The translations under genes and the position numbers were made by a program. Below, in pieces: positions 8,872 through 25,188 of a DNA stretch of 61,932 nucleotides. Position 1 is the stretch's first letter. Each line of letters opens with the position of its first letter. Source of the stretch: Flavobacteriales bacterium (GTDB lineage Bacteria > Bacteroidota > Bacteroidia > Flavobacteriales_D > Sanyastnellaceae); assembly GCA_002863125.1 (NCBI GenBank), contig PKEB01000009.1, positions 1 through 61,932 on the forward strand. The letters run 5' to 3'. Below the pieces are notes generated by a model. That model saw nothing but the letters and a program-made list of their open reading frames with translations. It was not told the DNA's origin and did no database searches.

Positions 8872-10191
8872 TCAGTCCAGAATCGGAGCGCCATACTTGG
8901 CTTGGTACTTCCGGTACAGCTGCCGCTGGCGGTTGTCCAAGTCGATGGCTCGGCCCTGAATGAACGCCTCCGTCACATAATTGGTCCGCATATCGAGGGC
9001 GTCACCTTCTGAAATAAAGAGGGTGGCGTCCTTTCCGGTTTCGAGGCTGCCGCAAAAAGCGTCCACGCCGATGATCTTGGCGGCGTTCAGTGTGAGGCTC
9101 TGCACGGCCTGCTCATAAGTCAAACCGTAGGCGTGTGCCGTACCGGCATAGAAGGGCAGGTTGCGCACGCCCATGTGCTCCATGCCTCCTGCATTTTGCA
9201 AACAAAACAGCACGCCCTCGTCCTCGAGCTCCTTCGCCAACCGGAACGGGGCGTCGACGTCGTCCTCGGCAAAACGCGGCAACGAATGCAACCGCTTGAC
9301 CATGACCGGCACGTTGTTTTCGCGCAGCAAATCCGCCACTGCCGGTGCATCCGTACCGCCCACAATCACGAGGTGTGCAATGCCCATTTCCCGCTTAAAG
9401 TGCACGGCTTCGGTGATCTGGCGAACGTCGTTGGCGTGTACATAAAGACGCAAGCTGCCATCGAACAGTCCGCGCATCGCCTCTTGGCGGAGGTCGCGCA
9501 CCGCAGTGCTGGACCGATCACCGGCCTCGGCGTACGCCTTGGCTTCAGAGAAGAAGCGCTGGATTTCGTGGCGTTCTTGGTCGTACGTCTTCCGCTTGCG
9601 GATGTCAATCTTGCCGTCTTGCCAGTGGCGGTGGTGGGTCACCGGCCAATTCAAGTGGATGCCATCCACGGCCTTCAATGCCGCGTCCTCCCAGTTCCAT
9701 CCGTCGAAATGCACAAAGGCACTCGAGCCGCTAATGACGCCGCCGCGTGGGGTGATCTGCCCCATCAGTACGCCGTTGGACCGCACGGTTGGTGTAACCT
9801 CGCTGTCCGTATTGAAGGCGATGATGGAACGCACGTGCGGTTTGAACGTGCCCACCTCTGCGTCGTCTCGGGTAGCGCGCACGGCACCGATTTCCTGCAA
9901 TCCAAGGGTGGAGTTGGGAGCGATGAAGCCGGGGTAAATGTGGCGACCGTTCGCTTCAATGACGCGGTTGTAGCGCGCGCGATCCACCGTACGTGCGAAC
10001 CCGACGTAATCGATTTTTCCATCGCGAAAACCGATGGCCGCATTTTCCAAGGCGTCTCCAGTGCCCAAATGCGCCGTGCCGCCCAAAATCAATATGCTCT
10101 CCTTTTGATCGGGCGCTGGCGTCGGCTGAGCAACAGCTGTTACCGCCACTCCCACACCCAGAACGAGGGTCAATAGTGCTTTGTAATTCAT
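8872..10191 (-). CDS. Secreted amidohydrolase-like protein with degenerate metal site
   Basis: This 439-aa protein has a signal peptide (hydrophobic LLTLVLGVGVAVTAVA, cut near AQP) and the amidohydrolase superfamily layout, beginning with a beta-sandwich strand ENAAIGFRDGKIDYVG and ending with TLNAAKIIGVDAFCGSLETGKDATLFI. The usual N-terminal metal-binding HxH after YPGFI is replaced by APNSTLG. This argues against a standard binuclear site. LYVHANDVRQ keeps one possible ligand. The start overlaps the stop of the upstream 1,000-residue amidohydrolase by four bases (ATGA), so the two are translationally coupled and may form a periplasmic complex. Substrate unknown. Confidence 0.85.
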   Translation of the reverse strand: MNYKALLTLVLGVGVAVTAVAQPTPAPDQKESILILGGTAHLGTGDALENAAIGFRDGKIDYVGFARTVDRARYNRVIEANGRHIYPGFIAPNSTLGLQEIGAVRATRDDAEVGTFKPHVRSIIAFNTDSEVTPTVRSNGVLMGQITPRGGVISGSSAFVHFDGWNWEDAALKAVDGIHLNWPVTHHRHWQDGKIDIRKRKTYDQERHEIQRFFSEAKAYAEAGDRSSTAVRDLRQEAMRGLFDGSLRLYVHANDVRQITEAVHFKREMGIAHLVIVGGTDAPAVADLLRENNVPVMVKRLHSLPRFAEDDVDAPFRLAKELEDEGVLFCLQNAGGMEHMGVRNLPFYAGTAHAYGLTYEQAVQSLTLNAAKIIGVDAFCGSLETGKDATLFISEGDALDMRTNYVTEAFIQGRAIDLDNRQRQLYRKYQAKYGAPILD

Positions 10192-13100
10192 CGGTTCTCG
10201 TCGGTTAAGGTGTCACAGTGGTAGTGGGAGTGCATGCGTTCGGACGGGGTGCGTTCTCCTCCTTTCGCGGCCGCTTTCATCGCCTGCACGAGGCGTGCAC
10301 GCTCGCCACGCATCCATTCCCGCTTTGTTGCATCCTCTTCGAGGTCGTAGTACTTGGTGCCGTCCACGTAGGTCTGTTCAGCCCGCGCGTAGACGCTCAG
10401 CGGATGGTCATCCCAGAGGACGATGTCCGCGTCCTTTCCCACGGCGATAGAGCCCACGCGGTGATCGATGCGCAGCAGTTTCGCCGGATTGAGGGTCACA
10501 AATTTCAGGGCTTCTTCCTCGGAGACGCCGCCGTACTTCACAGCTTTGGCTGCTTCTTGGTTGAGGCGACGCGCCATCTCAGCGTCGTCTGAATTGAACG
10601 CCGTCACGATGCCTTGTCCGTGCAGGACCGCGCCGTTGTACGGGATGGCGTCCTTGACCTCGAATTTGTAGGCCCACCAATCGCTGAAACTCGAGCCGCC
10701 AGCGCCGTGTTCGGCCATCTTATCGGCCACCTTGTAGCCCTCGAGGATGTGGGTGAAGGTGTTGATGGTAAAACCCATGGAATCGGCCACGTGCATCAAC
10801 ATGTTGATCTCATCTTGGCGGTAGCTGTGGCAGGTGACAAACCGCTCTTCGTTCAGGATTTGAGCGAGGGTCTCCAGCTCCAAATCCCGGCGCGGTGCCG
10901 CGGGCAACGAGTTATTTCGGCGCGCCTTACGGCTGGCATTGCGAACGGTTTGGCGGTAGTCCTTCCAGGCCTGGTCGTACTCGCGCGCACGATAGAAATG
11001 GTCGTAGTATACCTGCTCCACCCCCATGCGGGTTTGGGGGAATCGCGAGCGGTAGTCGCTGCCCCAATTGCTCTGCTTCACGTTCTCGCCAAGCGCAAAC
11101 TTGATGAACGGTGAGGCCTCCTCAAAAAGCATTTCTTGTGGTGAGGCACCCCACCGGAATTTGATGATGGCGCTTTGGCCGCCGATGGGGTTGGCGGACC
11201 CGTGCAGGATCTGCGCCGTGGTGACGCCCCCGGCCAATTGGCGGTAGATGTTCACATCCTCGCTGTTCACGGAGGATTGAATGGTCACCTCGGCGCTGCT
11301 GGCTTGCGTGCCTTCGTTGATACCGCGTGTGGCGGCGATGTGCGTGTGTTCATCGACAATGCCCGGCGTCAGGTGCTTGCCACGTGCATCAATGCGTTCG
11401 TAGGTGGGCAAATTGGAGCCGAAGACCGAGGCCTCGTCCAACGCCTCCCCGACCGCCAAAATTTTGCCGTTGTGAATGACGACATCCGCCTGTTCGAGTT
11501 TGCCGGTTGCTTCGCATGTCCACACCGTCGCCCCTTCGAACCACACCGTGCGCTGAGCCGGCCGTTCGACATTGCCGTAGGCCACAAACGGATACATGAC
11601 CTCGCCTTGCACGGAGTCGGGCTGAGCTTGGTACGTAGAGGCCTCTTCCTCGGGCTCGCTCTGGCGAATGGCACTCCATTCAACCCACGTCCCATCGGAA
11701 CGCTGCCCGCGGCCTTCCCAAATACGGCTGTCCATCCAAACGTTGCCCGACAGGCGCCACCAGCCATCCAAACCGAGCGTATCAAGCTGCATTCCGAGGC
11801 TCACCGAACGCCCATCCGGTGCGAAGTCCACCTTGTAATCGGTCGAGTCGATGATCACTTTGGCTTTCGGCTTGGACAATTCGCCGGTGACCTCCAACGA
11901 CAACACGCGATCGGCCACGGCCAAGTTGTAGGTGCCGCGAACGTCTACCTCATGCCGGTTGACGTACGTGTGCTGCTCTCCCTGCACCCAGTTTTCGAGC
12001 AACTGCGCGTCGGGGTGGAAAATCGCCCCGTCGGTGATCAGTACGTTGGCCTCAAGACCTTTCGCAATCCGGCCCACGCGGTCGGATGCCCCAATCAATT
12101 TGGCGGGAATCTCGGTCAAGGCGGCAAGGGCGGCCACTTCAGGCAATCCGTGGCGCATGCTCGTCCACACGGCGCTTCGGATGCCCGATGGGCTTTCGAG
12201 TCCGTCCGCCGTCAGCGCGAATTCGATGCCCGCAGCATGAACCCGGGCGGCATTGGAAGGCGCCAATTCCCAGTGTTTCAATTCATCCAGCCCCACGAGG
12301 CGGCTGGTGTAGGGGTCGCTGACATCGTACGCTTTGGGGTAATCCAAGGAAAGCACGAGTGGAGCTCCCGTTGCTTGGAGTTCATCCAGGCGTTGGTATG
12401 CGTTGTTTCCGGCGATCAAAATGAACGCGTGGTCCACGTCCTCACCCACCTTCGCGGCGCGTAACCCGTCTTCCCATCCACCGGCGTCAAAAAACGAGGG
12501 CTTGGAACGGCTGGCATTGAAGGCCTCCAGCGACAAGTTAGTCTCCAATCGCTCATTCAAGCGGCTGGCATCCGCGTACCAGTTTGCATCGAAAAAAGTC
12601 TGCTTCAACAAGGCCGTTGCCCCCATGAGGGAACGGGGGTAATCCTGTGACGAAGTTCCCTTTCGGAAGCTGTAATGTGCTGAGGCCTCGGGCTGCAACA
12701 AGGCGCGCCGCGGATCTTCCGACAATGCGACCAGTGCCCCTGTGCCGCGAACGATGCCGTCCTGAACGTGGGATACCACGGCACCAAAGCCGCCTTTTTG
12801 GTAGGCGCTGCGGTCGGCCTCCGCTTCGGAAGGATCGAATACATCAGCCGCGCGTGTCTCTGGTCGAACGGCTTCGTTCCACCCAAAAGCGCCTTTCTTA
12901 TCGCTCAAATCCTGCGGTCCTCGTCCCCAGCCTTCGCGTTGGGCTTCCGGCATGGCGTAGTCGCTGTGGATGTCCACAAACGAAGGGTACACGTGCAAGC
13001 CATTCAGATCGTGTCGGATGACCGGACCATTGACTTGAATCACGCTGCTCAGTCCCACGGCTTCGATTCGGCCTTGGTAAAACACCACGGTGGCATCTTC

Positions 13101-13277
13101 GATCACTTCCGTCGAACTGACGTGCACGGTCGCGTGCTCCAAGGCCGTGCGGACCAACTGCTTGTTCACCACGCCGTTGACCGGAAAAGTCCCTTGGGCG
13201 GTGGTGCTGTGGACCATCGCCGTCGCCGCCAAAAGGGGCAGCATGCACGCGGTCCATCTTTGCAAATGTTTTCTCAT
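10188..13277 (-). CDS. Secreted tandem amidohydrolase protein
   Basis: This 1,029-aa exported protein contains two amidohydrolase modules. The first (about residues 30-420) has VDIHSDYAMP where active enzymes have HxH, so it looks degenerate. A beta-rich linker follows (LSKPKAKVIIDST, LDTLGLDGWWRLSG). The second module carries an intact set: VDEHTHIAA (HxH), CHSYRQDE, FTHILEGYK and FNSDDAEMAR, closing with TLNPAKLLRIDHRVGSIAVGKDADIVLW. I start at the ATG at 13277, directly before the signal peptide. The in-frame start at 13310 is a TTG with a non-signal lead. It is the first gene of a two-gene operon and overlaps the next gene by four bases. The substrate may be a cyclic amide or dipeptide; I cannot tell. 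Confidence 0.88.
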   Translation of the reverse strand: MRKHLQRWTACMLPLLAATAMVHSTTAQGTFPVNGVVNKQLVRTALEHATVHVSSTEVIEDATVVFYQGRIEAVGLSSVIQVNGPVIRHDLNGLHVYPSFVDIHSDYAMPEAQREGWGRGPQDLSDKKGAFGWNEAVRPETRAADVFDPSEAEADRSAYQKGGFGAVVSHVQDGIVRGTGALVALSEDPRRALLQPEASAHYSFRKGTSSQDYPRSLMGATALLKQTFFDANWYADASRLNERLETNLSLEAFNASRSKPSFFDAGGWEDGLRAAKVGEDVDHAFILIAGNNAYQRLDELQATGAPLVLSLDYPKAYDVSDPYTSRLVGLDELKHWELAPSNAARVHAAGIEFALTADGLESPSGIRSAVWTSMRHGLPEVAALAALTEIPAKLIGASDRVGRIAKGLEANVLITDGAIFHPDAQLLENWVQGEQHTYVNRHEVDVRGTYNLAVADRVLSLEVTGELSKPKAKVIIDSTDYKVDFAPDGRSVSLGMQLDTLGLDGWWRLSGNVWMDSRIWEGRGQRSDGTWVEWSAIRQSEPEEEASTYQAQPDSVQGEVMYPFVAYGNVERPAQRTVWFEGATVWTCEATGKLEQADVVIHNGKILAVGEALDEASVFGSNLPTYERIDARGKHLTPGIVDEHTHIAATRGINEGTQASSAEVTIQSSVNSEDVNIYRQLAGGVTTAQILHGSANPIGGQSAIIKFRWGASPQEMLFEEASPFIKFALGENVKQSNWGSDYRSRFPQTRMGVEQVYYDHFYRAREYDQAWKDYRQTVRNASRKARRNNSLPAAPRRDLELETLAQILNEERFVTCHSYRQDEINMLMHVADSMGFTINTFTHILEGYKVADKMAEHGAGGSSFSDWWAYKFEVKDAIPYNGAVLHGQGIVTAFNSDDAEMARRLNQEAAKAVKYGGVSEEEALKFVTLNPAKLLRIDHRVGSIAVGKDADIVLWDDHPLSVYARAEQTYVDGTKYYDLEEDATKREWMRGERARLVQAMKAAAKGGERTPSERMHSHYHCDTLTDENR

Positions 13278-13326
13278 TCTCGAGGTTTGAACTTCGTTTA
13301 GGAACGGCAATTTACAAGACGCCGAC

Positions 13327-13991: not shown

Positions 13992-14777
13992 CTAACGCCC
14001 GGCCTTGATGGCCTGGATTTCGGCCCGCAGCGAGTCCAACGTCCCTTGAATCCGCTCCATGCCCGAGAAAGCCGGCGTCGGCCAATTGAAAGCCAAATAC
14101 CCGCGCGCGCGCCACACTTCCACCACCTCTGAAGGCTTGACGGAATACGGAGGGTAATCCGGGTTATCGGAAATCAACCACAGGTCTTTGTGCTCCGAAT
14201 CCAGGCGGTTCTCGATGCGTTTGAATACGACGCCATCGTTGCGGGTCACCACGATGTACGGGCGCATGCCTCCGGCGCGATGCCAATCTTCCTCGTAGGT
14301 GCTCAAGATGTAACTGCCGCTTGGGATGGGCAGCATGCTCTCGCCCTCGATTTGAAACAACCGGTGGGTCAAGTTAGGGGTGACCTCGGGCAGCGGAAGG
14401 CCAAACGTTGGCAGCCCCTGCACATAGTCTGGATCGCCATAACCGTCGAGGTAACCGGCCGCGGCTTTCACCGGCACCACCGCCACGCGCTCCTCATCGC
14501 TCGAGGCATCTACCGGCACCGAAAGCACCCGCAACGACGTACCGCGTGCGCGACGCTCGCCCGATTCATCGCCTTTCAGCAACGCGTCCACGGACACGCC
14601 AAAAAACTCAGCGAACGCCACCACATTCACCAACCGCGGTTCGGCACGCCCCTCCTCGTAAGCTCCCAACGCCGCACGCTTCAAGCCGATGCGGTCGGCC
14701 AATTCTTGCTGGGTTAGTCCACGCGCTTTGCGCAAGGCTTTCAAGTGCTGGGCGAAGTGAGGAAGGGATTCCGGCAT
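13992..14777 (-). CDS. XRE-family repressor with S24 (LexA/CI-like) self-cleavage domain
   Basis: This 261-aa regulator has an N-terminal helix-turn-helix (about residues 8-62; LTQQELADRIGLKRAALGAY is the core) and a C-terminal S24 peptidase domain. The catalytic dyad is visible: Ser147 in EGESMLP and Lys186 in VVFKRI, 39 residues apart, close to LexA spacing. KAAAGYLDGY offers an Ala107-Gly108 bond, the type cut in LexA and CI. The last 30 residues look coiled (ERIQGTLDSLRAEIQAI). By family knowledge it should repress until DNA damage triggers self-cleavage. An inverted repeat just upstream of its start recurs before dinB, so it probably controls itself and the dinB-SRAP-dnaE operon. Cleavage and RecA dependence are inferred. 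Confidence 0.9.
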   Translation of the reverse strand: MPESLPHFAQHLKALRKARGLTQQELADRIGLKRAALGAYEEGRAEPRLVNVVAFAEFFGVSVDALLKGDESGERRARGTSLRVLSVPVDASSDEERVAVVPVKAAAGYLDGYGDPDYVQGLPTFGLPLPEVTPNLTHRLFQIEGESMLPIPSGSYILSTYEEDWHRAGGMRPYIVVTRNDGVVFKRIENRLDSEHKDLWLISDNPDYPPYSVKPSEVVEVWRARGYLAFNWPTPAFSGMERIQGTLDSLRAEIQAIKAGR

Positions 14778-14785
14778 GGGGTGGT

Positions 14786-14805
14786 TTTGCTAACAAAAGT
14801 AGCAA
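14786..14805. promoter_or_regulatory. Predicted operator (copy 1) of the XRE-S24 regulator
   Basis: Inverted repeat TTTGCT-N8-TAGCAA, nine bases upstream of the regulator's ATG. Its core TTGCTA-N7-TAGCAA is perfectly palindromic. The same 12 fixed bases with the same spacing recur at 16347-16366 before dinB. It lies where a bound repressor would block its own promoter. Confidence 0.6.
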
Positions 14806-14857
14806 TGCCACGAGAAAGAGGAAAATCATTGAGGGTACTGTATCTTGTATTCCCCAA

Positions 14858-16312
14858 ATGATTGCGATGATGCGTTGGCTAAACTTGAGCGGACTCGGCT
14901 GGGCCTTGGGCCTGAGCCTGTCGGTGATAAATACCGGTGTGGCTCAACGCGTCTGTGGCCTGCCTGCCGCTGCGATCTGCGGCCACCAAAATGCCGCGTG
15001 CGGAGCTGGCCTCGAGGGCATTCCGGTGGACGCCAACACCCACATTGGACCGCCCGCGTGGTACACACCAGATGCCCCACGGGACGCCACCGTGATCGTG
15101 AATTACAACGGATTTCCCGAAGAGGCCATGCTGGCTTTCGACTACGCCGTGGACATTTGGTCGGTGCTGCTGACCTCGGATGTGACGGTGCGCATCGATG
15201 CATTTTGGACGGATCTGGGTGCTGGTGCGCTGGCGCAAGCAGGGCCTTCGAACCTCCACCAGAATTTTGCCAATGCGCCCATCAGCGACACGTACTACCC
15301 CGCTGCTTTGGCCAACGCCCTTGCCGGCGAAGACCTCTCGGAACAGTCCGACCTCGAGTGCACATTCAACAGCACAGCCAATTGGTACCTCGGAACCGAT
15401 GGCAACACGCCCGTGGGCACCTACGATTTTGTGACCGCTGCCTTGCACGAATTGGCGCACGGATTCGGCTTCATTGGCAGCGCCTACTACACGAACGGAT
15501 TCGGCTTCTTGGGCACCGCCAACATCCCGTATCCGTATGACCATTTCACAGAGACGCAAGACTCCGTCGCTTTGCTCGATCTCCCGAACGGTTCGCAGAC
15601 CTTGGGAGCAGCATTGACATCGGATCACATTTACTGGAATGGGGCCAACGGAATGGAGGGCGTCGGCGGAGGACGTCCACGGTTGTATGCCCCGGCAAAT
15701 TATCAAGTCGGTTCAAGCTACTCCCACCTGAACGAAACCACCTACTCGCCGGGAACCCCCAACAGCTTGATGACCCCCGGGCTGAATACCGCAGAGTCCA
15801 ACCACAACCCTGGTCCTGCGTTGTTGGGCATGTTTGTCGACATGGGCTGGGTCATCGGCGGATGCCAAATCCTCGAAGTGGAAATTGGCGAGCAAGGCGC
15901 GTGCAACCCCGATTCGGACACCTACACGCAAGCGCTGGTGTTGACGTACCAAGCCCCGCCCACCACCGGGCTCATTCAAGTCAACGGCAGCCTGTTCTCC
16001 CTCGGCGACAGCCCCCAGACCATTGTCCTCACGGGCCTCCCTTCGGATGGACAAGCGGTGCATTTGGACATCGGCTTCACCGCCAATTCGGAATGCAGCG
16101 TGTTCATCCCTGAAGCCTTTACCGCACCGGCCTCGTGTTATTGCCTCACCGATTTGAGTGAAAACGGCCTCACGGAAGTACAGGACCTGCTATTGCTTTT
16201 AGCTGATTTCGGGTGTTTGGTGGGCTGCGAGGGCGATGTAAACGGCGACGGCGCAAGCAACGTGGAAGACGTACTGGCCGTGCTCTCAGCCTTTGGAGGC
16301 AGTTGTCCGTAA
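14858..16312 (+). CDS. Secreted zinc metalloprotease with dockerin-like C-terminus
   Basis: This 484-aa exported protein has a signal peptide (hydrophobic GLGWALGLSLSVI, cut near VAQ). The catalytic zinc motif HELAHGFGF (HExxHxxGF) lies about residue 200, as in zincin-type proteases, followed by SHLNETTYSPGTPNSLMTP, a Met-turn-like segment. The C-terminal ~55 residues carry two calcium-loop-like repeats, one degenerate (LSENGLTEVQDLLLLLADFG) and one canonical (DVNGDGASNVEDVLAVLSAFG), as in dockerin repeats. No type IX sorting tail is seen. Three ATGs are possible (14858, 14867, 14870); I use the first. It is divergent from the S24 regulator and precedes dinB in the same direction, but an operator-like repeat separates it from dinB. 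Confidence 0.85.
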   Translation: MIAMMRWLNLSGLGWALGLSLSVINTGVAQRVCGLPAAAICGHQNAACGAGLEGIPVDANTHIGPPAWYTPDAPRDATVIVNYNGFPEEAMLAFDYAVDIWSVLLTSDVTVRIDAFWTDLGAGALAQAGPSNLHQNFANAPISDTYYPAALANALAGEDLSEQSDLECTFNSTANWYLGTDGNTPVGTYDFVTAALHELAHGFGFIGSAYYTNGFGFLGTANIPYPYDHFTETQDSVALLDLPNGSQTLGAALTSDHIYWNGANGMEGVGGGRPRLYAPANYQVGSSYSHLNETTYSPGTPNSLMTPGLNTAESNHNPGPALLGMFVDMGWVIGGCQILEVEIGEQGACNPDSDTYTQALVLTYQAPPTTGLIQVNGSLFSLGDSPQTIVLTGLPSDGQAVHLDIGFTANSECSVFIPEAFTAPASCYCLTDLSENGLTEVQDLLLLLADFGCLVGCEGDVNGDGASNVEDVLAVLSAFGGSCP

Positions 16313-16346
16313 AATATTTTAGCATTCGGTTGCGTTTATTTTTGGC

Positions 16347-16366
16347 TTTGCTCATTATTTTAGCAA
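16347..16366. promoter_or_regulatory. Predicted operator (copy 2) upstream of dinB
   Basis: TTTGCT-N8-TAGCAA, identical in all 12 arm bases and in spacing to the repeat at 14786-14805, with an unrelated AT-rich spacer. It ends six bases before the dinB ATG, so binding would block the dinB-SRAP-dnaE promoter. Confidence 0.6.
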
Positions 16367-16372
16367 GCTCAA

Positions 16373-17605
16373 ATGAACGGAACACCGCCCCCTTCTGCCC
16401 GTGCGATTTTGCACTTGGACCTCGATACTTTTTTTGTGTCGGTCGAACGGCTCATGGACCGGCGGCTTGCCCACCAACCCATCCTCATCGGCGGCACCGG
16501 TGACCGCGGGGTCGTCGCAGCGTGCAGCTACGAGACGCGGGCATTTGGCGTGCACTCCGGCATGCCCATGCGGCAAGCGCGGTTGATGTGCCCCGAGGCG
16601 TTGGTCATCCGCGGCAACTCCATGAACTACATGAAGCATTCGCGTGCGGTGACCGAAATCGTCCAAGAGGCCGTTCCCGTTTGTGAGAAGACCTCCATCG
16701 ACGAGTTCTACGCCGACCTCAGCGGCATGGACCGGTTCTTTGGCTGTTGGCAATTCGCCCGGGAACTGCGTGATCGGGTCATCCGCGAGACCGGTTTGCC
16801 CATCTCATTCGGCATGAGCACCAGCAAAACCGTCAGCAAGGTGGCCACCGGGCAAGCCAAGCCCTCCGGCACCCTCAAAATCGACCACGGCACCGAACGC
16901 CCCTTCCTCGCGCCCCTCTCCGTTCGCAAAATCCCCATGGTCGGCACCCAGACCTACCAGACGCTGCGCAACCTCGGGGTCAAGCGCATCCAGACCGTCC
17001 AAGAAATGCCCCTCGAACTGATGGAGCAGGTCCTCGGCCAGAACGGCACCGCCATTTGGCGCAAGGCCCACGGCATCGACCCCAGCCCGGTCATCGCCTT
17101 CAACGAGCGCAAGTCCATCTCCACCGAACGCACCTTCTCCAAGGACACCACCGACGTCGAAAAGCTGAAAGGCATCCTCATCGCCATGACCGAGAACCTC
17201 GCCTACCAACTCCGGCGGGGACGCAAGCTCACGGCCTGCGTCGCCGTCAAGGTGCGCTACGCCGACTTCGACACCCGTTCCCTCCAAGCGCGCATTCCCT
17301 ATTCCTCGTCCGATCACGTCCTCATTCCCAAGGTCAAGTCCCTCTTCGATCAGCTGTACAATCGCCGCGTGCAGGTCCGCCTCATCGGCGTGCGCTTCAG
17401 CCACCTGGTCGAAGGTGGGTTCCAAATGGACCTGTTCGACGACGTGGACGAACGCCTCGAACTCTACCGTGCTCTCGATCGCATTCGGTCCCAGTACGGC
17501 GACCGCAGTGTCGTCACCGCCGCCGGGATGGAGGCGCGCACCATCGGACGCTCCAATCCCTTCAATGGCGATGCGCCCTTGCTTCTTGCCAACCGTCATC
17601 AGTAA
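16373..17605 (+). CDS. dinB: Y-family DNA polymerase IV (DinB)
   Basis: This 410-aa translesion polymerase copies damaged DNA with low fidelity. Catalytic carboxylates are seen in HLDLDTFF (Asp16) and SIDEFYAD (Asp110, Glu111). The middle carries SFGMSTSKTVSKVATGQAKP and the thumb/helix-hairpin region VRKIPMVGTQTYQTLRNLGVK. A little-finger domain follows (ISTERTFSKDT). A sliding-clamp-binding pentapeptide QMDLF is at residues 351-355. Length is slightly above E. coli DinB. It is the first gene of an operon with an SRAP protein (12 bases downstream) and a DnaE polymerase. The operator repeat just upstream suggests control by the nearby S24 repressor. It may fill the role played by ImuB in other mutagenesis cassettes. 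Confidence 0.95.
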   Translation: MNGTPPPSARAILHLDLDTFFVSVERLMDRRLAHQPILIGGTGDRGVVAACSYETRAFGVHSGMPMRQARLMCPEALVIRGNSMNYMKHSRAVTEIVQEAVPVCEKTSIDEFYADLSGMDRFFGCWQFARELRDRVIRETGLPISFGMSTSKTVSKVATGQAKPSGTLKIDHGTERPFLAPLSVRKIPMVGTQTYQTLRNLGVKRIQTVQEMPLELMEQVLGQNGTAIWRKAHGIDPSPVIAFNERKSISTERTFSKDTTDVEKLKGILIAMTENLAYQLRRGRKLTACVAVKVRYADFDTRSLQARIPYSSSDHVLIPKVKSLFDQLYNRRVQVRLIGVRFSHLVEGGFQMDLFDDVDERLELYRALDRIRSQYGDRSVVTAAGMEARTIGRSNPFNGDAPLLLANRHQ

Positions 17606-17617
17606 ATTCATTGCATC

Positions 17618-18454
17618 ATGTGTGGCCGCTACGTTACCGTCTCTACCGTTCAAACCATCGAAAGCCGCTTCCAGGTGCAGGCCGCACCCGACGTGTCTAA
17701 TCAGTGGCGCCCCAACGCCAACGTCAGCCACGGCGAGGCCGCGCCGGTCATCGCCAGTGACAGCCCGCGCACCCTGCAGATGCAGCAATTTGGTTTCACT
17801 CCGCGGTGGGCCAAAAAGCAATTCTACATGATCAACGCCCGCTCCGAGGGCGACCACAACAAAGAGGACCGGCCCGAGTACACCGGCGCGATGGGCATCC
17901 TCCAAAAACCCATGTTCCGCCAATCCATCCGCGACCGGCGCTGCATCGTCATCGCCGATGCCTTCATCGAGGGGCCGCGCCAAGAAAAACTCACCAAGCC
18001 CTACCTCGTCTACGCCCGGCACGGCCGACGACCGTTTGGCCTCGCGGGCATTTGGGACGAATGGGCCAACCCCGCTACAGGTGAGATCACCCGGTCGTTT
18101 GCCATCCTGACCACCGTCGCCAACGAACTCATGCAGGCCATCGGCCACCACCGCTCTCCCGTCGTGCTCGACGAGGAGCAAGAGCAGGCATGGGTCGACC
18201 TCTCGACGCCGCTCTCGGACATCACCGGAATGCTGCGGCCCTGTCCCGCTGCGAAACTGAACGCCTACCCCATCTCTCCAGACATCCGCGACCCGCGCGC
18301 CAACGGTTCCGACCTGCTCCAACCCACCGGCGCCCGCGTTTACCCGGAACACGGCTTCGAAATCCATCAGGAACTGGAGATGTTCGGCATGGGCGAGTCC
18401 CGGGCGCGCAACCGCCAATCCTCCGCCCCGGGCGCACAAGGCTCCCTCTTCTAA
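17618..18454 (+). CDS. SRAP/HMCES (YedK-like) abasic-site protein
   Basis: This 278-aa SOS-response-associated peptidase-type protein should form a covalent thiazolidine link with abasic sites in single-stranded DNA through its N-terminal Cys2, after Met1 removal. Family residues are visible: MCGRY start, Asn73 in MINARSE, Glu118 in DAFIEGP (family form is usually FYEW) and His177 in GHHRSP. It is longer than E. coli YedK (about 222 aa), with an extra C-terminal tail after residue 245. That tail ends in QGSLF (274-278), which matches the QxxLF clamp-binding pattern; human HMCES also ends in a clamp-binding (PIP) motif. It lies between dinB and dnaE with short spacers (12 and 21 bases), so the three gene products probably act together at stalled forks. 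Confidence 0.93.
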   Translation: MCGRYVTVSTVQTIESRFQVQAAPDVSNQWRPNANVSHGEAAPVIASDSPRTLQMQQFGFTPRWAKKQFYMINARSEGDHNKEDRPEYTGAMGILQKPMFRQSIRDRRCIVIADAFIEGPRQEKLTKPYLVYARHGRRPFGLAGIWDEWANPATGEITRSFAILTTVANELMQAIGHHRSPVVLDEEQEQAWVDLSTPLSDITGMLRPCPAAKLNAYPISPDIRDPRANGSDLLQPTGARVYPEHGFEIHQELEMFGMGESRARNRQSSAPGAQGSLF

Positions 18455-18475
18455 TCCCTGGCTGCCGGTCTTTCC

Positions 18476-21400
18476 ATGCACCTGCATTGCCACTCTTGGT
18501 TCAGCCTGCGCTATGGGCTGATGCAACCCCGCGAGTTGTTGGCCGAAGCCCAAGCCGCGGGGATCACGGCGTTGGCCCTAACCGACATCAACGCGACGTC
18601 CGCCCACTGGGACTTTGTGCGCGACGCTCCCGAGTACGGTATTCGCCCCGTCCTGGGCATCGATTTCCGCAACGCCTCCACCGACCGCGACCCCGCCGGA
18701 ACGCCCCTCTACATCGGCTACGCCCGCAACAACACCGGGTACGCCAACCTGTGCGCGCACCTCAACGCCCACCTGCATGCGCACCGGCCTTTTGAACCGG
18801 TGGCGCCCGCTCTCGAACACACCTTCATCGTGTACCCGTGGGCGCGGTGGAAGCACACACGTCCCCCGCTCCGGTCCAACGAATACATCGGCGTGCGGCC
18901 GTGGGAACAGGCCGAGCTCCGCCTGCTCGAAGGCGCTGCCGATGTGCCCCACGAGCGGCTCGTCGCCCTGCACACGTTCACGTTCCGGCACAAACGCGAT
19001 TGGAATTGCCACCGCATCCTGCGGGCCGTGGACCGCAAAGAGCTGCTGAGCAAGTTGCCCGAAACCGCCACCGGCCACCCGTATGACCGGCTGCTCTCGC
19101 CCGCCGATTTTCACCAGGCGTTCGCCGAGCATCCCCACTGGGTGGAGCGGGCCGAGTCGCTGCTCAACGCATGCGAGATCGCTTTGCCTGACCCTCCGGA
19201 CGGCCGATCGCACAACAACCAACACACCTACACCGAGTCGGAAGACGAGGACGAACAGCTCATCCGAGCGCTGTGTGCTGAAGGATTGGCCTACCGCTAC
19301 CCCGACCACGAAGAACACGTCCTCGAGCGAATGGAAATGGAGCTGGCGGTCATCCGGCAGCAGGGGTATTTGGCCTATTTCCTCATCAATTGGGACATCA
19401 CCAGCTATGCGCGCAGCCGTGGGTACTTCTACGTGGGACGTGGAAGCGGGGCCAACAGCCTCGTCGCCTATTTGCTGCGCATCACGGACGTAGACCCCAT
19501 TGAACTCGACCTCTACTTCGAACGGTTCATCAACCTGTACCGCACGAATCCGCCGGACTTCGACATCGACTTCTCGTGGACCGATCGAGACGACGTGACG
19601 GAATACATCTTCAAGCGGTTCCCCCACGTAGCGCTGGTGGGGGCGTACAGCACCTTCCAGTACCGTGCGGTCATCCGGGAATTGGGGAAGGTCTTCGGCC
19701 TGCCCAAACACGATATCGACCGCATCGCCGATGGCAAACTCCTGCGGCCCGGCACCGACGACATGGAAGCCCTCGTGGTGCGGTACGCCGGCTACCTCCA
19801 GGACTTCCCGAACGCCCTGACCATCCACGCGTGTGGCATCCTCATCGCCGATCGGCCCATCCACCATTTCGGCGGGACGTTCATGCCGCCCAAGGGCTTC
19901 CCCACGACGCAGTTTGACATGGTCGTCGCGGAAGACGTGGGCCTGTACAAATTCGACATCCTCAGCCAGCGGGGACTGGGCAAAATCCGCGACACCATCG
20001 ACCTCATCGCCGAGCACCAACCCCAAGTCGCTGCCCAAATCGACATCCACGACATGGCGCGGTTCAAGCGCGACCCGCGCATCCAACACCTGCTCCGAGA
20101 AGCCTTGGCGGTCGGGTGTTTCTACGTCGAATCGCCCGCCATGCGGATGCTGATGCGCAAGCTCCGCGTCGACAACTACCTCGGACTCGTCGCAGCGAGT
20201 TCGGTCATTCGGCCCGGTGTGTCGCGCAGCGGGATGATGCGCGCCTACATCGAGCGGCACCGGCACCCCGAACGGCGCGACGACGCCCACCCCGTCCTCC
20301 TCGAATTGATGCCAGAAACGTACGGGGTCATGGTGTACCAGGAGGACGTCATCAAGGTGGCTCACCACTTCGCCGGGCTCGACCTCGGTGAAGCGGATGT
20401 GCTGCGCCGCGGCATGAGCGGGAAGTTCCGGTCGCGGGAAGAGTTTGCCAGGGCGCGGGACGCCTTCCACCAAAAGGCCATCGAACGCGGGCGGGACCCG
20501 GTGCTCGTCGAAGAGGTTTGGCGCCAAGTGGAAAGCTTCGCCGGCTACGCCTTTGCCAAGGGCCACTCCGCCTCGTACGCCGTGGAAAGTTACCAGAGCC
20601 TGTACCTGAAGGCGCATTGGCCCATCGAGTACATGGCCGCGTGCATCAACAACTTTGGCGGGTTCTACCGTACGGAATTCTACGTGCACGAAGCCCGTAT
20701 GGTGGGAGGGCGCATCGAGGCCCCGTGCGTCAACCGCGGGGGCTGGGAAGCGTGTGTGGAACCGCATTGCCGCACCATTTTGCTGGGCTTCAACCTCGTC
20801 CGGGGCATCCACGCCCAAACCATCGCTCGCATCATGCACGAGCGCCAACAGGGCGGCACCTACGCGTCACTGGAAGATGCCATCGAACGCACCGGACTCG
20901 GCCTTGAGCAATGCCTGCTCATCATCCGGTGCGGCGGGTTTCGGTTCACCGGCAAGAACCCCCAACAACTTCAGTGGGAAGCGCATTTTCTGCTTGGCTA
21001 CACCCAAAAAGGAACCACCGACGGCACCCTCTTCACGCCGGACATTACCCGGTTCACCCTGCCCCGCTTTGAGGCCAACGACCTCGAAGTCGCCTTCGAC
21101 CAGATCGAATTGTTTGGGTTTCCACTGATTTCACCTTTCCGGTTGCTGACCCCCGAGGCCCAGGCCGTTGCCGAGCGCGGCGTGCGCAGCGAAGCGCTGC
21201 CGGACTGCATTGGGCGGACGGTCGAAGTGGTAGGATACCTGGTCACCGTCAAAGAAACCCACACCGCGCGACGGGAGCGCATGAGTTTTGGGTGTTTCGT
21301 GGATGTCGAAGGCCAATGGTTGGACACTGTCCACTTCCCCCCGTCGTTGAAGCAGTTTGCCTTCCGCGGGCGCGGGATCTACTTGGTGCGCGGCGTGGTC

Positions 21401-21592
21401 AAAGAGGAGTTCGGATGCATCCACGTCGAGGCCGCCTTCATGCAAAAGCTCGACTACATTCCCGATCCACGGTACGCGGAGGACGGGCTACCCGGTCGAG
21501 AGCCGCGCCCCAACAACGCCAGTGCGGCACGGCGCCGACAAACGATGGGCGCCCGAAGCGGCGGCGGTCTGCTCAAGCGCTCGTTGCGCTGA
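18476..21592 (+). CDS. DNA polymerase III alpha subunit, accessory (DnaE2/ImuC-like) form
   Basis: This is a 1,038-aa C-family polymerase, shorter than the housekeeping alpha subunit (about 1,160 aa or more). An N-terminal PHP domain starts with MHLHCHSWFSLRYG, but the later PHP ligand motif usually written TDH reads TDIN, so the PHP metal site is probably incomplete. Catalytic Asp residues are in PPDFDIDFSW (359-368). GRGSGANSLVAYLLRITDVDP and GYAFAKGHSASYA are core polymerase blocks. A C-terminal OB domain follows (VVGYLVTVKETHTARRERMSFG). QIELF at 876-880 resembles a clamp motif but sits at the conserved LGF position, so I give it little weight. Its place behind dinB and SRAP indicates a translesion role, as for DnaE2/ImuC. 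Confidence 0.92.
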   Translation: MHLHCHSWFSLRYGLMQPRELLAEAQAAGITALALTDINATSAHWDFVRDAPEYGIRPVLGIDFRNASTDRDPAGTPLYIGYARNNTGYANLCAHLNAHLHAHRPFEPVAPALEHTFIVYPWARWKHTRPPLRSNEYIGVRPWEQAELRLLEGAADVPHERLVALHTFTFRHKRDWNCHRILRAVDRKELLSKLPETATGHPYDRLLSPADFHQAFAEHPHWVERAESLLNACEIALPDPPDGRSHNNQHTYTESEDEDEQLIRALCAEGLAYRYPDHEEHVLERMEMELAVIRQQGYLAYFLINWDITSYARSRGYFYVGRGSGANSLVAYLLRITDVDPIELDLYFERFINLYRTNPPDFDIDFSWTDRDDVTEYIFKRFPHVALVGAYSTFQYRAVIRELGKVFGLPKHDIDRIADGKLLRPGTDDMEALVVRYAGYLQDFPNALTIHACGILIADRPIHHFGGTFMPPKGFPTTQFDMVVAEDVGLYKFDILSQRGLGKIRDTIDLIAEHQPQVAAQIDIHDMARFKRDPRIQHLLREALAVGCFYVESPAMRMLMRKLRVDNYLGLVAASSVIRPGVSRSGMMRAYIERHRHPERRDDAHPVLLELMPETYGVMVYQEDVIKVAHHFAGLDLGEADVLRRGMSGKFRSREEFARARDAFHQKAIERGRDPVLVEEVWRQVESFAGYAFAKGHSASYAVESYQSLYLKAHWPIEYMAACINNFGGFYRTEFYVHEARMVGGRIEAPCVNRGGWEACVEPHCRTILLGFNLVRGIHAQTIARIMHERQQGGTYASLEDAIERTGLGLEQCLLIIRCGGFRFTGKNPQQLQWEAHFLLGYTQKGTTDGTLFTPDITRFTLPRFEANDLEVAFDQIELFGFPLISPFRLLTPEAQAVAERGVRSEALPDCIGRTVEVVGYLVTVKETHTARRERMSFGCFVDVEGQWLDTVHFPPSLKQFAFRGRGIYLVRGVVKEEFGCIHVEAAFMQKLDYIPDPRYAEDGLPGREPRPNNASAARRRQTMGARSGGGLLKRSLR

Positions 21593-21595
21593 AGC

Positions 21596-23977
21596 TTACT
21601 CGTTCTTTTTGGGAGGCAGGATGCCCCAACGCAGCCCCGCATAGAACATGCGGCCGAAGATGGGGCCGTACACCAACCTCGCGTCGAAGTACTGGTTGAA
21701 GTCCTGTTGCGCCACGGGGTTGTCCCCATAATCCGCGCCGATGATCGGGCGGTCTTGCTTGTAATTCAGCGCGTTTTCGACGCCGAGGTACACCGAGAAT
21801 TCCGGCGTGAATTGCCGCGTGAGTTGAGCATTCAACTGGTAGAAATCCGGAGCATAGTCCGGGCGGCTGAACGGCTCGGGGTTCGCAGCTGTCGTCGGCA
21901 GGCGTTGAGCACCGATCCATTGGAAGGTGGCATCCGCACGCCATTGGCCCTCGCGGTCGTCGAGCTGCGATGCATAGCTGATTTGGCTGAAACCACGGTG
22001 CTTGGAGACGAACGGGTCCTCGGTGGGGTTGCCGAGGATGCGGTCCGTGTGCGCGTTCACCCAACGGTACGCGAGGCGCACGTCCCACCGGCGGTGCATG
22101 TCCCAATTGAACTCTGCCTGAGCCGTGTTGGCGAAGGAACTCCCGGACAGGTTGTACAGGTGAATGGCATCCGTGGCCTGGTCGAGATCCACCACGAGCT
22201 TGTTCTCGAAACGCGTAGAATAGGCATCCAACGTCAAGGATGCCTCGCGGTAGTTCAGGCGGAACTTGCTCGTGAGGTTGGTGCCGAAGTTGGTGGCGAT
22301 TTCGGGCTGAAGGCCCCGGCTATCGTATCCCCAATACCACTGGCGTTGGCTGGCCCAAGTCCCGAGCTGTTCCATGAAGGGGTTGGGTGTTCGGAAGCCA
22401 CGACCGGCCGCGATTTTCCACGACACGTTTTCAGTGACACTCCAACGTGCGTGCAGTCGCGGGCTCAGTATGCCGCCGAACAAATTGTGTTGGTCATACC
22501 GCACGCCGCCAATGACACTCCAACGCTCGTTTCCGGACCACGTGTACTCGGCGAAAACCCCCGGCACCTGTTCCTCTCGCTCTGGGCTGTATTGGAGGTC
22601 TAAGCTGTCATTTACTTCAAACTGAAGTTGCTCATCAAAGGCATTGTAGACGTAGCTCAGGCCCGTTGTAAAGCTGTGGTTCGTATTGCCGATGATGTCC
22701 GCGTACAAGATGTTGCCGCGGAAGAAGCGTTCGTGGCCATCGTAATGATTGCTTCCAAAGCGGTGTGTGTGCCGGTGGTCGTAAAATGTAAGTTGCGTTC
22801 CGATGCTGCGCCATACCGCATCCGGAAATACATACCCCGTTTTAGCTGTTGCTTCAACGCGATCGATTTGCGTAACTGCAGACCAAGCAGCAGTAGGCGC
22901 ATCGAGTAAGCTCCGCCACGTTTCAGGCAAGGTAAGCCCTTCGTAGGCAACCGTCTGACCCGCTCCGCTGCCGGTTTCCAAGACTGTGATTGCATACTCC
23001 CCGCGTATTCCGCGGTCACCCTTGAATTTCCACTCATTCCGGCCAATGAGGTGGCGATGAAGAGGAGCATCCAGAAATCCATCCCCATTCCGATCGTTCA
23101 AGCGTTCATTTCTGAGGCCGTGTAGTAGCACTGTTGTGCTCCAGCGCCGCGACACCTTCTGATTGGTGACCACATTTACTTCTGAACGACCCATCCGATT
23201 GAAATACACATTGGCGTGCAAAGGGTCCGCCGTCTCGGGGTTTTTCATCGCCACGTTGATCTGCCCTGTAATGCTCTCATAACCTTGTGTTGCGCTCCCG
23301 GCGCCTTTGCTGATGTGGATTGCATGCACCCAATCCCCGGGTATGTATTCCAGTCCTTTAATCACATTGAGGCCTCTCGGGCCAGGCATGTTATCCACCT
23401 GAAGCTGGCTGTATTTTCCATGCAGACCCAGCATGCGAATTTGACGGGTTCCGGTGACTGCATCCGTGAACGAGGCGTCCACCGAGGCGTTGGTTTCAAA
23501 AGCCTCCGACAGGTTGCAACAAGCCGCTTTGACGAGCTCCTTTCGATTCAGGTACTGAACGTCCAATGGTGATAGCAAGGAAAGTTGAGTTGCAGCTTTC
23601 TTTTCTACCACCTCGGCAGATTCCAATTCCACCCCCGACTTCAACGGAATATCCACGTACGATTCGCCGTTGTACACCCATCCAACGGTTTCAAAGCCCG
23701 CCATTGACACGACCAGCGTGTCGCCTACCCCAGCTTTGCTGATTTTGAAAAACCCGAACCCATCCGAGACAGTCGTGCTGGTTTCGTCGTGCGACCAGCG
23801 CACGTAGGCCCCGGGCAGTGGAATGTACGTGGGTTCTCCGCGGCGAGCGCCGGCAGCGTGGTCGTGATCTTCATGGGCTTCCTCCGTGAGGACTTTCCCT
23901 TTCAGGAAATTGAATTGAGATAAGGCAACATCCGGCACCCAAAGTCCGAGCATACAGATGAGCAGGAGCCGCTTCAT
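21596..23977 (-). CDS. TonB-dependent outer-membrane receptor, metal-linked group
   Basis: This 793-aa receptor has a signal peptide (MKRLLLICMLGLWVPDVALSQ region), an N-terminal carboxypeptidase-D-like domain, a plug domain and a 22-strand-type barrel to the C-terminus. Two features hint at metals: an acidic His-rich insert EEAHEDHDHAAG right after the signal peptide, and a Cys pair ACCNLSEAFETN at the start of the plug. I start at the ATG at 23977; the longer frame begins with TTG at 23986. It follows the HMA-domain gene by nine bases in the same direction, so the two are probably cotranscribed. A copper or other heavy-metal ligand is my inference; the substrate is not shown by sequence. 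Confidence 0.9.
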   Translation of the reverse strand: MKRLLLICMLGLWVPDVALSQFNFLKGKVLTEEAHEDHDHAAGARRGEPTYIPLPGAYVRWSHDETSTTVSDGFGFFKISKAGVGDTLVVSMAGFETVGWVYNGESYVDIPLKSGVELESAEVVEKKAATQLSLLSPLDVQYLNRKELVKAACCNLSEAFETNASVDASFTDAVTGTRQIRMLGLHGKYSQLQVDNMPGPRGLNVIKGLEYIPGDWVHAIHISKGAGSATQGYESITGQINVAMKNPETADPLHANVYFNRMGRSEVNVVTNQKVSRRWSTTVLLHGLRNERLNDRNGDGFLDAPLHRHLIGRNEWKFKGDRGIRGEYAITVLETGSGAGQTVAYEGLTLPETWRSLLDAPTAAWSAVTQIDRVEATAKTGYVFPDAVWRSIGTQLTFYDHRHTHRFGSNHYDGHERFFRGNILYADIIGNTNHSFTTGLSYVYNAFDEQLQFEVNDSLDLQYSPEREEQVPGVFAEYTWSGNERWSVIGGVRYDQHNLFGGILSPRLHARWSVTENVSWKIAAGRGFRTPNPFMEQLGTWASQRQWYWGYDSRGLQPEIATNFGTNLTSKFRLNYREASLTLDAYSTRFENKLVVDLDQATDAIHLYNLSGSSFANTAQAEFNWDMHRRWDVRLAYRWVNAHTDRILGNPTEDPFVSKHRGFSQISYASQLDDREGQWRADATFQWIGAQRLPTTAANPEPFSRPDYAPDFYQLNAQLTRQFTPEFSVYLGVENALNYKQDRPIIGADYGDNPVAQQDFNQYFDARLVYGPIFGRMFYAGLRWGILPPKKNE

Positions 23978-23986
23978 CCGAATCAA

Positions 23987-24364
23987 TTATTCCGGTCGGT
24001 AATCGTCGTGATCCTGGTCATCCCCACCGGTGCAGCTGCTACCTCCTTCACGGTACTTGCAGCATCCGTGCATGTTGGCGTAGGCCTCATCGGTCGCTTT
24101 GATTTTCTCCGTGTCGTGGCCGACGTTGGCAATCAGCTGGTGGATTTGCTCTTCGGAAAGGACCTTGGTCTTGTAGGCAACGGTAGCCTTTTTGGTTTCT
24201 ACGTCCCATTCCGCCATGATGACTCCGGGTACATCCAATGCCTTTTCAATGCGTGCTTCGCACATCCCGCATACCCCGCTCACTTGAAATTCAATCTGCG
24301 CCTTTTTTTGGGCAAACGAGGCCGTGGACAAGGCCAAAGCCATCAAAATCAATACGTACTTCAT
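23987..24364 (-). CDS. Exported heavy-metal-associated (HMA) domain protein
   Basis: This 125-aa protein has a signal peptide (MKYVLILMALALSTASFAQ) and an HMA fold of about 70 residues. The metal-binding loop is GVCGMCEARIEKAL, a CxxC variant of the MxCxxC motif. The C-terminal tail adds MHGCCKYR, a further Cys, and an Asp/His-rich end (DDQDHDDYRPE), all possible soft-metal ligands. I start at the ATG at 24364 because the signal peptide begins there; a longer frame up to 24439 would run into sdhB. A near-consensus -7 box lies five bases upstream. Adjacent to the TonB receptor, it probably binds a periplasmic metal ion for delivery or detoxification. Confidence 0.9.
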   Translation of the reverse strand: MKYVLILMALALSTASFAQKKAQIEFQVSGVCGMCEARIEKALDVPGVIMAEWDVETKKATVAYKTKVLSEEQIHQLIANVGHDTEKIKATDEAYANMHGCCKYREGGSSCTGGDDQDHDDYRPE

Positions 24365-24368
24365 AGAG

Positions 24369-24376
24369 TAAAGATA
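24369..24376 (-). promoter_or_regulatory. Near-consensus -7 box upstream of the HMA gene
   Basis: Minus strand TATCTTTA differs from TAnnTTTG only in the last base. The identical octamer lies upstream of sdhC (27921-27928), which supports both. Confidence 0.4.
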
Positions 24377-24438
24377 AGCGAAATGTCCCTTTCGAAGGCG
24401 CAAACACTCACAACTCCTGCAAACGCGGCTACCCTGCA

Positions 24439-25188
24439 TTATTCCTCCGACGCGCTGGCAGATAGGAAGTCGCGGTTCATGCGCGCGATGTTACTGAGAT
24501 CGATTCCCTTCGGACATTCGACGGCGCACGCACCGGTGTTGGTGCAGTTGCCAAAGCCTTCTTTGTCCATTTGGTCAACCATGCGCTGGACACGGGAAGC
24601 ACGCTCAGGCTGGCCCTGTGGCAACAGAGCAAACTGAGACACCTTGGCTGATACGAAGAGCATCGCAGAGGCGTTCTTGCATGTCGCTACGCAAGCACCG
24701 CAACCGATGCACGTTGCTGCGTTGAACGCTTCATCGGCTTGCGCTTTGGGCACGGGGATGGCGTTTGCGTCCAACGTCTCACCGGACGTGTTAACGGAGA
24801 TGTAGCCGCCCGCCTGAATGACCCGGTCGAATGCACTTCGATCCACCGCCAAGTCTTTCACGACAGGGAACGCCGATGCACGCCAAGGCTCGATGGTGAT
24901 GGTGTCTCCATCCTTGAAGGAGCGCATGTGCAGCTGGCACGTCGTGACGCCGCGATTCGGCCCGTGGGCTTCGCCGTTGATGAACATAGAGCACATACCA
25001 CAAATGCCTTCGCGGCAATCGTGGTCGAAAGCCACAGGATCGCCACCGTCTCGGATGATTTGGTCATTCAACATGTCCATCATCTCCAAAAACGACATGT
25101 CCGGAGAAACGCCGCTAACAGGATAGGTCTCAATTCGGCCCTTGTCATTCGGACCGTTCTGCCGCCAAACTTTCAATGTCAAATCCAT
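24439..25188 (-). CDS. sdhB: Succinate dehydrogenase/fumarate reductase iron-sulfur subunit
   Basis: This 249-aa subunit carries electrons between the flavin and the quinone site of complex II. The [2Fe-2S] ligands are in [15 protein letters not shown], with a further Cys in TTCQLHMR. The C-terminal half has [13 protein letters not shown] for one cubane cluster and [15 protein letters not shown] for the others. It is the last gene of the order sdhC-sdhA-sdhB typical of Bacteroidota menaquinone-linked (type B) enzymes. It starts nine bases after sdhA. Direction of catalysis cannot be decided from sequence. Confidence 0.96.

Follow-up and report, generated by a model that had tools for sequence, protein, structure and literature searches.

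We analysed a 61,932-bp stretch of DNA (contig PKEB01000009.1, positions 1 to 61,932 of the forward strand; hereafter the window) from a Flavobacteriales bacterium of the family Sanyastnellaceae (assembly GCA_002863125.1). The locus of interest comprises a gene for a 261-residue repressor with HTH_3 and Peptidase_S24 domains (13992..14777, minus strand), a secreted metalloprotease-like gene (14858..16312, plus strand) and an operon, also on the plus strand, of dinB (16373..17605), SRAP (SOS response associated peptidase; 17618..18454) and a second dnaE-type polymerase gene (18476..21592). One inverted repeat is located between the regulator gene and the divergent metalloprotease-like gene (operator 1, 14787..14805) and again between the metalloprotease-like gene and dinB (operator 2, 16348..16366). 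Homology and comparison make us confident that this locus is a minimal SOS module, in which a non-canonical LexA of Bacteroidota controls itself and dinB-SRAP-dnaE through the shared operator; that is, both the repressor's own gene and a single error-prone polymerase operon are very probably kept off by this phage-type self-cleaving protein, of a kind that takes the place of LexA in Bacteroidota, via the same site.

The original prediction described the repeat as TTTGCT-N8-TAGCAA, nine bases before the regulator and six before dinB. A search of the window found this word exactly at 14786-14805 and 16347-16366, confirming the repeat pair as a real observation. Its register was off-centre by one base, the two-fold symmetric element being TTGCT-N9-AGCAA, which carries no strand and reads TTGCTAACAAAAGTAGCAA at operator 1 (TTGCTACTTTTGTTAGCAA on the minus strand) and TTGCTCATTATTTTAGCAA at operator 2. 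The start of dinB (16373) is six bases past 16366 as claimed; the distance to the regulator start (14777) is eight bases from 14786, and nine only when counted from the symmetric dyad at 14787. Both operators can be read as TTG-CTAA-N5-TTAG-CAA with one mismatch each; the exact CTAA-N5-TTAG core is absent from both, each having seven of its eight bases, and GGA-N5-TCC was found neither at the operators nor in the dinB upstream region. The spacers are unrelated between the two operators, as had been stated, yet within the genus each is kept, with major-base frequencies that average 0.93 and 0.92.

The 62-kb window is by itself weak evidence for an operator: the number of matches with up to two mismatches did not exceed shuffle levels (6 against 3.26 +/- 1.86 in shuffles, 13 of 100 of which reached 6), and 252 and 134 of 5,000 shuffles (5.0% and 2.7%) had 6 or more of 7 pairs in dyad symmetry somewhere within 60 bp. 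Stronger evidence comes from the shared 6-N8-6 word, from the rarity of the 14-base palindrome across the genome and from the retention of both sites across the genus. An identical 6-N8-6 word common to both 60-bp upstream stretches was seen in just 5 of 20,000 shuffled pairs (single-base shuffles). We scanned the whole genome of 2,274,441 bases (2.27 Mb) for the 14-base palindrome TTGCTAA-N5-TTAGCAA, using the reversed motif as a control. Operators 1 and 2 were the only matches with up to one mismatch, and the random scattering that would have counted against the original prediction was not seen for this full palindrome. One additional place appeared at two mismatches (C14:5546, with no SOS gene seen adjoining), and there were 34 places at up to three mismatches versus 92 for the reversed control.

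Other candidate sites in the genome were examined and set aside. Allowing one mismatch, the scan for the shorter dyad TTGCT-N9-AGCAA found 65 places and the reversed control 57, so that no usable signal emerged. Its third exact copy (C12:85997), 5' of a glycosyltransferase-like open reading frame (ORF; by eye), has three mismatches to the 14-base motif and was attributed to chance. A one-mismatch place from the same shorter-dyad scan, less than 500 bp 5' of recA (C5:24375), falls within an upstream peroxiredoxin-like ORF, and the recA upstream region has no operator. The genome holds two exact copies of CTAA-N5-TTAG, against 35 of the reversed control; one directly precedes tuf and the other falls within an SmpB-like ORF (both named by eye), and neither is an SOS gene. 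Genome-wide scans placed no operator at recN, uvrA, ruvB and similar genes, whose upstream regions were not inspected singly. The regulon is apparently minimal on these scans, consisting of the regulator itself and one operon, without recA.

Of the 40 genomes searched, its own among them, 32 have the regulator; within the genus it was found in 17 of the 21 genomes other than its own. The gene order nfu-regulator-metalloprotease-dinB-SRAP-dnaE is retained in the genus as far as contigs extend, and is the same in a genome of another genus of the family (G023). Operator 1 keeps 11-13 of the 14 consensus bases in all 18 genus genomes having the regulator (own included), and operator 2 keeps 12-13 in all 17 with sequence 5' of dinB; the eighteenth (G011) has an operator-2-like site at a contig end. 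Loss of the repeat from close relatives that retain the genes, another possible objection, was therefore not seen, both sites being kept in the 18 genus genomes. The mean major-base frequency of the ten arm bases is 0.99 at operator 1 and 0.98 at operator 2, compared with 0.58-0.71 in the 40-bp flanks. When the 22 genus genomes were scanned with up to one mismatch, 29 of 31 sites lay at the regulator or dinB (reversed control, 12 sites); the remaining two were one inside dnaE and one in G004 without an adjoining SOS gene (by eye). Three relatives with dinB and no regulator match (G024, G031 and G034) have at best 8-10 of the 14 operator bases before dinB, which fits the proposed module. A perfect palindrome in G009 was discounted for its position inside dnaE. 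We drew nothing from the joint absence of regulator and dinB in four congeners (G002, G003, G004 and G021), as nfu is missing there too and the region may be absent from incomplete genomes.

The regulator matches HTH_3 (PF01381, 3.3e-16) and Peptidase_S24 (PF00717, 1.9e-06), and is the only S24 match in the genome. The self-cleavage residues are located where the original prediction placed them: the predicted scissile bond Ala107-Gly108 (codons 14454..14459, minus strand, as for the following residues), catalytic Ser147 within GESM (14337..14339) and catalytic Lys186 (14220..14222) are invariant in 81 of 81 aligned sequences, namely the window regulator and 80 named loci. The winged-helix N-terminal domain of canonical LexA was not found: LexA_DNA_bind (PF01726) gave no match in the regulator or elsewhere in the genome at E<=1, in a search that found 14 of 14 controls, 9 of them above the cut-off. 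The idea of a small mutagenesis regulon without canonical LexA is thus supported by the single S24 match, by the absence of LexA_DNA_bind matches and by two genome-wide operators conserved in the genus, and it also fits the invariant cleavage residues and the presence of homologues with the published SOS motif.

An AlphaFold2 model of the regulator (35 sequences; mean predicted local distance difference test score, pLDDT, 79.2; predicted template modelling score, pTM, 0.56) has five N-terminal helices within residues 6-68, with no strands or wing there, followed by the S24 beta domain and an extra C-terminal helix (240-260) modelled with middling confidence (mean pLDDT 62 for 241-250 and 77 for 251-260). 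Confidence around the cleavage bond is low (pLDDT about 58-66). In structure comparison of the model, the N-terminal domain aligned with the P22 c2 repressor 3jxb (Z 11.8, root mean square deviation (rmsd) 1.3, 65 aligned) and the S24 domain with LexA 3k2z (Z 12.2, rmsd 2.9, 122 aligned), and the top Foldseek match was the lambda repressor 3bdn (E 3.5e-07). Whole-chain rmsd values were large because the low pTM leaves the mutual placement of the domains unfixed. Phosphonate epoxidase rows in the structure comparison were rejected, as the match was confined to the common helix-turn-helix (HTH) part.

Homologues of the regulator link it to a published operator. Of the 80 named loci, the best of at least 582 confirmed stretches and in many cases from Mucilaginibacter, Pedobacter or Sphingobacterium, 53 have an exact CTAA-N5-TTAG in the 200 bp upstream of the regulator homologue, compared with 1.0% of shuffled regions. 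A second set gave 19 of 44 loci (0.6% of shuffles), and the two sets partly overlap (L192 = G012, L193 = G019, L198 = G020) and are not fully independent. Among 20 more distant homologues one has the exact core, and L188, also one of these 20, has three sites of the second published motif, GGA-N5-TCC. The regulator is 50% identical to L081, the best CTAA-bearing homologue, versus 32% to L188; by operator and sequence it is nearer to CTAA-N5-TTAG homologues than to the GGA-N5-TCC one. By eye, stretches such as TTTGCTGATACAAATTGTATCA or TTATAAATTATAACA recur upstream of many of the distant homologues L174-L187 (families f15 and f16) and may be other operator types.

We built two trees, both omitting 12 of the 18 congeners (near-copies) and the very divergent L091 and L092, and containing no published reference protein of non-canonical LexA. 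In the 68-row tree the genus is monophyletic (96/97), and the CTAA labels fall together, needing 4 changes versus 17.6 in shuffles. The second tree, which also omits L188, again recovers the genus as one clade (100/96), within an 11-row set that includes the CTAA-bearing L081 (98/94), and midpoint rooting puts the genus in the half holding 19 of the 20 CTAA rows (94/91). This placement of the genus among CTAA-type homologues is suggestive.

Operator 1 also overlaps a promoter element. A probable -7 box of the regulator gene, TACTTTTG (14794..14801, minus strand), lies inside it and matches TAnnTTTG, the -7 consensus of Flavobacterium promoters (PMC9723704). We found TANNTTTG on the regulator strand within operator 1 in 18 of 18 genomes. 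The box is probably active as a promoter, and a repressor bound at operator 1 would then block polymerase.

DinB (PF00817, 4.3e-42; PF11799, 6.7e-26) retains DLDTFF and SIDE, which we take to be the acidic motifs marking an active-looking Y-family polymerase, and contains QMDLF (17423-17437, plus strand), presumably a clamp-type motif. A further segment (17471-17527, plus strand), ALDRIRSQYGDRSVV, resembles the N-terminus of the genome's own RecA, TLDRMDKTYGKGTVM, in a comparison by eye only. SRAP (PF02586, 2.3e-45) starts with MCGRYV and has Cys2. The final gene of the operon encodes one of two PF07733 matches in the genome (2.8e-58) and is DnaE2-like by context. The operon contains neither imuA nor imuB (imuA was not searched genome-wide), and with a Y-family protein that keeps its acidic motifs it differs from the ImuA-ImuB-DnaE2 mutasome, where a dead ImuB stands beside ImuA. 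It resembles the putative mutasome of Bacteroidetes described as PolY2-DnaE2 or DnaE2B-PolY-RecA, comprising an active Y-family polymerase, DnaE2 and presumably RecA (PMC6511836, PMC12926913), in that it combines an active-looking Y-family polymerase and a second DnaE without imuA or imuB, and by eye has a RecA-like polymerase segment. Unlike that system it has a SRAP gene mid-operon. The two polymerases may likewise act as a complex.

The 'non-canonical LexA' proteins of Bacteroidetes are HTH_3 and S24 repressors with a conserved Ala-Gly bond, Ser-Lys dyad and C-terminal helix, which bind CTAA-N5-TTAG or GGA-N5-TCC; among their targets are the repressor gene itself, SRAP, and dinB, in many cases together with a DnaE gene (PMC8565304, Sanchez-Osuna et al. 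2021). Gel shifts and mitomycin-C induction were reported there for three members, with self-binding in the members tested; small regulons were also described, as was a divergent yet functional palindrome in Elizabethkingia. As in this family, one palindrome is shared here by the regulator's own promoter and that of the error-prone polymerase genes. Our regulator resembles the CTAA-N5-TTAG group in its HTH_3 domain, in its S24 domain with Ala-Gly and Ser-Lys, in its C-terminal helix and in an operator that precedes its own gene and dinB on the same palindrome axis, with a core one mismatch off. It differs in that this operator has drifted, with one core half degenerate and the outer TTG/CAA nearly invariant, and in an apparent regulon of itself and one operon, without recA. 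With the GGA-N5-TCC group it shares domain architecture and dinB, often with a DnaE gene, as the dominant target, but neither operator has that motif. The inexact core bars the CTAA group label and not the family label, given that the divergent Elizabethkingia palindrome works (PMC8565304). HdiR and UmuDAb (PMC8565304) and FddR (PMC13148647) are likewise S24 repressors with small regulons, acting on their own gene and an error-prone polymerase output, but these are described as having independent origins and have other motifs (GTG-N11-CAC for FddR).

By homology, we infer that the regulator is induced by damage, binds its operators and cleaves itself. A regulator dimer would bind two copies of a 19-bp dyad, TTGCT(A)-N7-(T)AGCAA: one at 14787-14805, where it would cover the probable -7 box of its own gene, and one at 16348-16366, directly 5' of dinB. 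It would thereby repress both the regulator gene and the dinB-SRAP-dnaE operon. Upon DNA damage, RecA filaments would stimulate cleavage at Ala107-Gly108 via the Ser147/Lys186 dyad and so end repression, and the translesion polymerase pair, DinB and the DnaE2-type protein, would be made with SRAP until the damage is gone.

Several observations weigh against this interpretation. Each site is one base off CTAA-N5-TTAG. In the two published members examined for this, base changes in either dyad were enough to prevent binding (PMC8565304), so the recognised bases must have shifted here. No exact CTAA core was found in 27 of the 80 loci, 25 of the 44 and 19 of the 20 distant homologues. The 68-row tree groups the genus with L078 and the lone GGA row L188 (97/99), the latter on a branch 3.34 long, and does not settle the published cluster to which the genus belongs. 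Beyond the genus the operator is retained imperfectly, with 12 of 14 bases at dinB (TTGCTCATTATTTTAGCAG) versus 10 of 14 at the regulator in G023, and 11 of 14 at both in G022. The 20 bp left of the dinB operator are also well conserved (0.82), and TANNTTTG is missing from all 17 dinB sites.

A shift in recognition is the core of a further proposal, which we advance tentatively and which could well be wrong: the genus would represent an additional operator specificity of non-canonical LexA, in which the protein has come to recognise the outer TTGCT/AGCAA in place of the inner CTAA/TTAG, the operator includes the -7 box of the regulator gene itself, and the regulon is reduced to a single mutagenesis operon without recA, making error-prone synthesis the whole SOS response. 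Relatives such as L195, where a single intergenic region combines the exact CTAA core with imperfect TTGCT-type dyads, would then be intermediates. Its regulator and that of L194 are 63 and 66% identical to ours, respectively; in both loci regulator and dinB are directly divergent, no metalloprotease-like gene was found between them, and the intergenic region has imperfect TTGCT-type dyads. This arrangement and these dyads suggest an origin of the drifted operator from CTAA-N5-TTAG and a later insertion of the metalloprotease-like gene. Two tandem operator-like dyads, TTGCTAAAAAT... and ATTCTTATTATTTTAGCA, precede the regulator in Phaeocystidibacter luteus (L205) and a Flavobacteriia genome (L206), where dinB, SRAP and dnaE follow downstream on the same strand.

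We weighed other explanations of the shared dyad. Binding by the S24 protein is inferred, and another regulator could in principle bind the dyad with the S24 protein as merely one of its targets. This seems improbable to us, since 29 of the 31 dyad sites in the genus are at the regulator gene or dinB, the axis and almost all of the core agree with the motif proven for the regulator's homologues, and self-binding is reported in tested members (PMC8565304). A role of the repeat as part of a promoter or of a translation start is more improbable still. Both sites are near start codons and operator 1 always holds TANNTTTG, but a general promoter element would recur, whereas the genome has only two sites with up to one mismatch; moreover, the symmetric arms are conserved beyond the -7 box and the dinB sites do without TANNTTTG. 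We give almost no credence to a prophage or defence-island repressor that merely adjoins repair genes. The HTH matches phage repressors and, weakly, CapH/RmrA profiles, but these matches span the HTH alone, the locus is conserved across the genus, and the neighbours with Pfam matches (nfu, amidohydrolases, TonB receptor) are of housekeeping type.

The metalloprotease-like gene raises a different question, as operator 1 might also serve this divergent gene, with read-through into dinB, and so bring a secreted protease into the regulon. Such an addition would be compatible with the SOS module proposed here. From the beginning of operator 1 it is 71 bp to the start of the gene, and 58-83 bp to the aligned start in those congeners that allowed a measurement; the gene is also retained between regulator and dinB in congeners. 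However, its product is less conserved than DinB (60-96% versus 82-99% in congeners), and the module occurs without this gene in L194 and L195. Co-repression from operator 1 is thus possible, and we regard it as unlikely; the gene is probably a bystander. Its product matches NF038122 metallo_LGF (1.2e-17) at 64.9 bits, under the cut-off of 80, when scored on the longer ORF 14408-16312, gave no Pfam match at 0.01 and has a dockerin-like tail (by eye).

Beyond the module, the operon adjoins a TonB-dependent receptor gene (21596-24439, minus strand), preceded by a heavy-metal-associated domain protein and possibly forming a metal-uptake pair with it. On the regulator side, two adjacent amidohydrolase-family genes (8872-10191 and 10188-13310, minus strand) overlap by a few bases, and the long one (1040 residues) has more than one amidohydrolase stretch.

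A locus of this kind is not in itself new, since a 2021 study described the kind and supported it by gel shifts and mitomycin-C experiments (PMC8565304); the drifted operator and the one-operon regulon are what look new. No description of the variant operator motif was found in one library of open-access literature, searched partly by a piece of the motif and without the supplement of PMC8565304, and the main text of that paper does not name Cryomorphaceae, Crocinitomicaceae or Schleiferiaceae. What looks modestly new is thus a genus-wide drifted operator overlapping the probable -7 box of the regulator, with an apparently minimal regulon.

The locus is very probably a small and mildly divergent representative of an already known DNA-damage switch, its function being assigned from homology and comparison. 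It extends the SOS system of Bacteroidota to a genus of uncultured marine Flavobacteriales, whose named members are metagenome-assembled genomes, and provides a comparative series of operator drift, from the exact CTAA core in outgroups to the drifted core here. Operator drift accompanies an apparently small regulon, a link proposed previously (PMC8565304). The locus also suggests that induced mutagenesis may be the sole SOS output in these small genomes.

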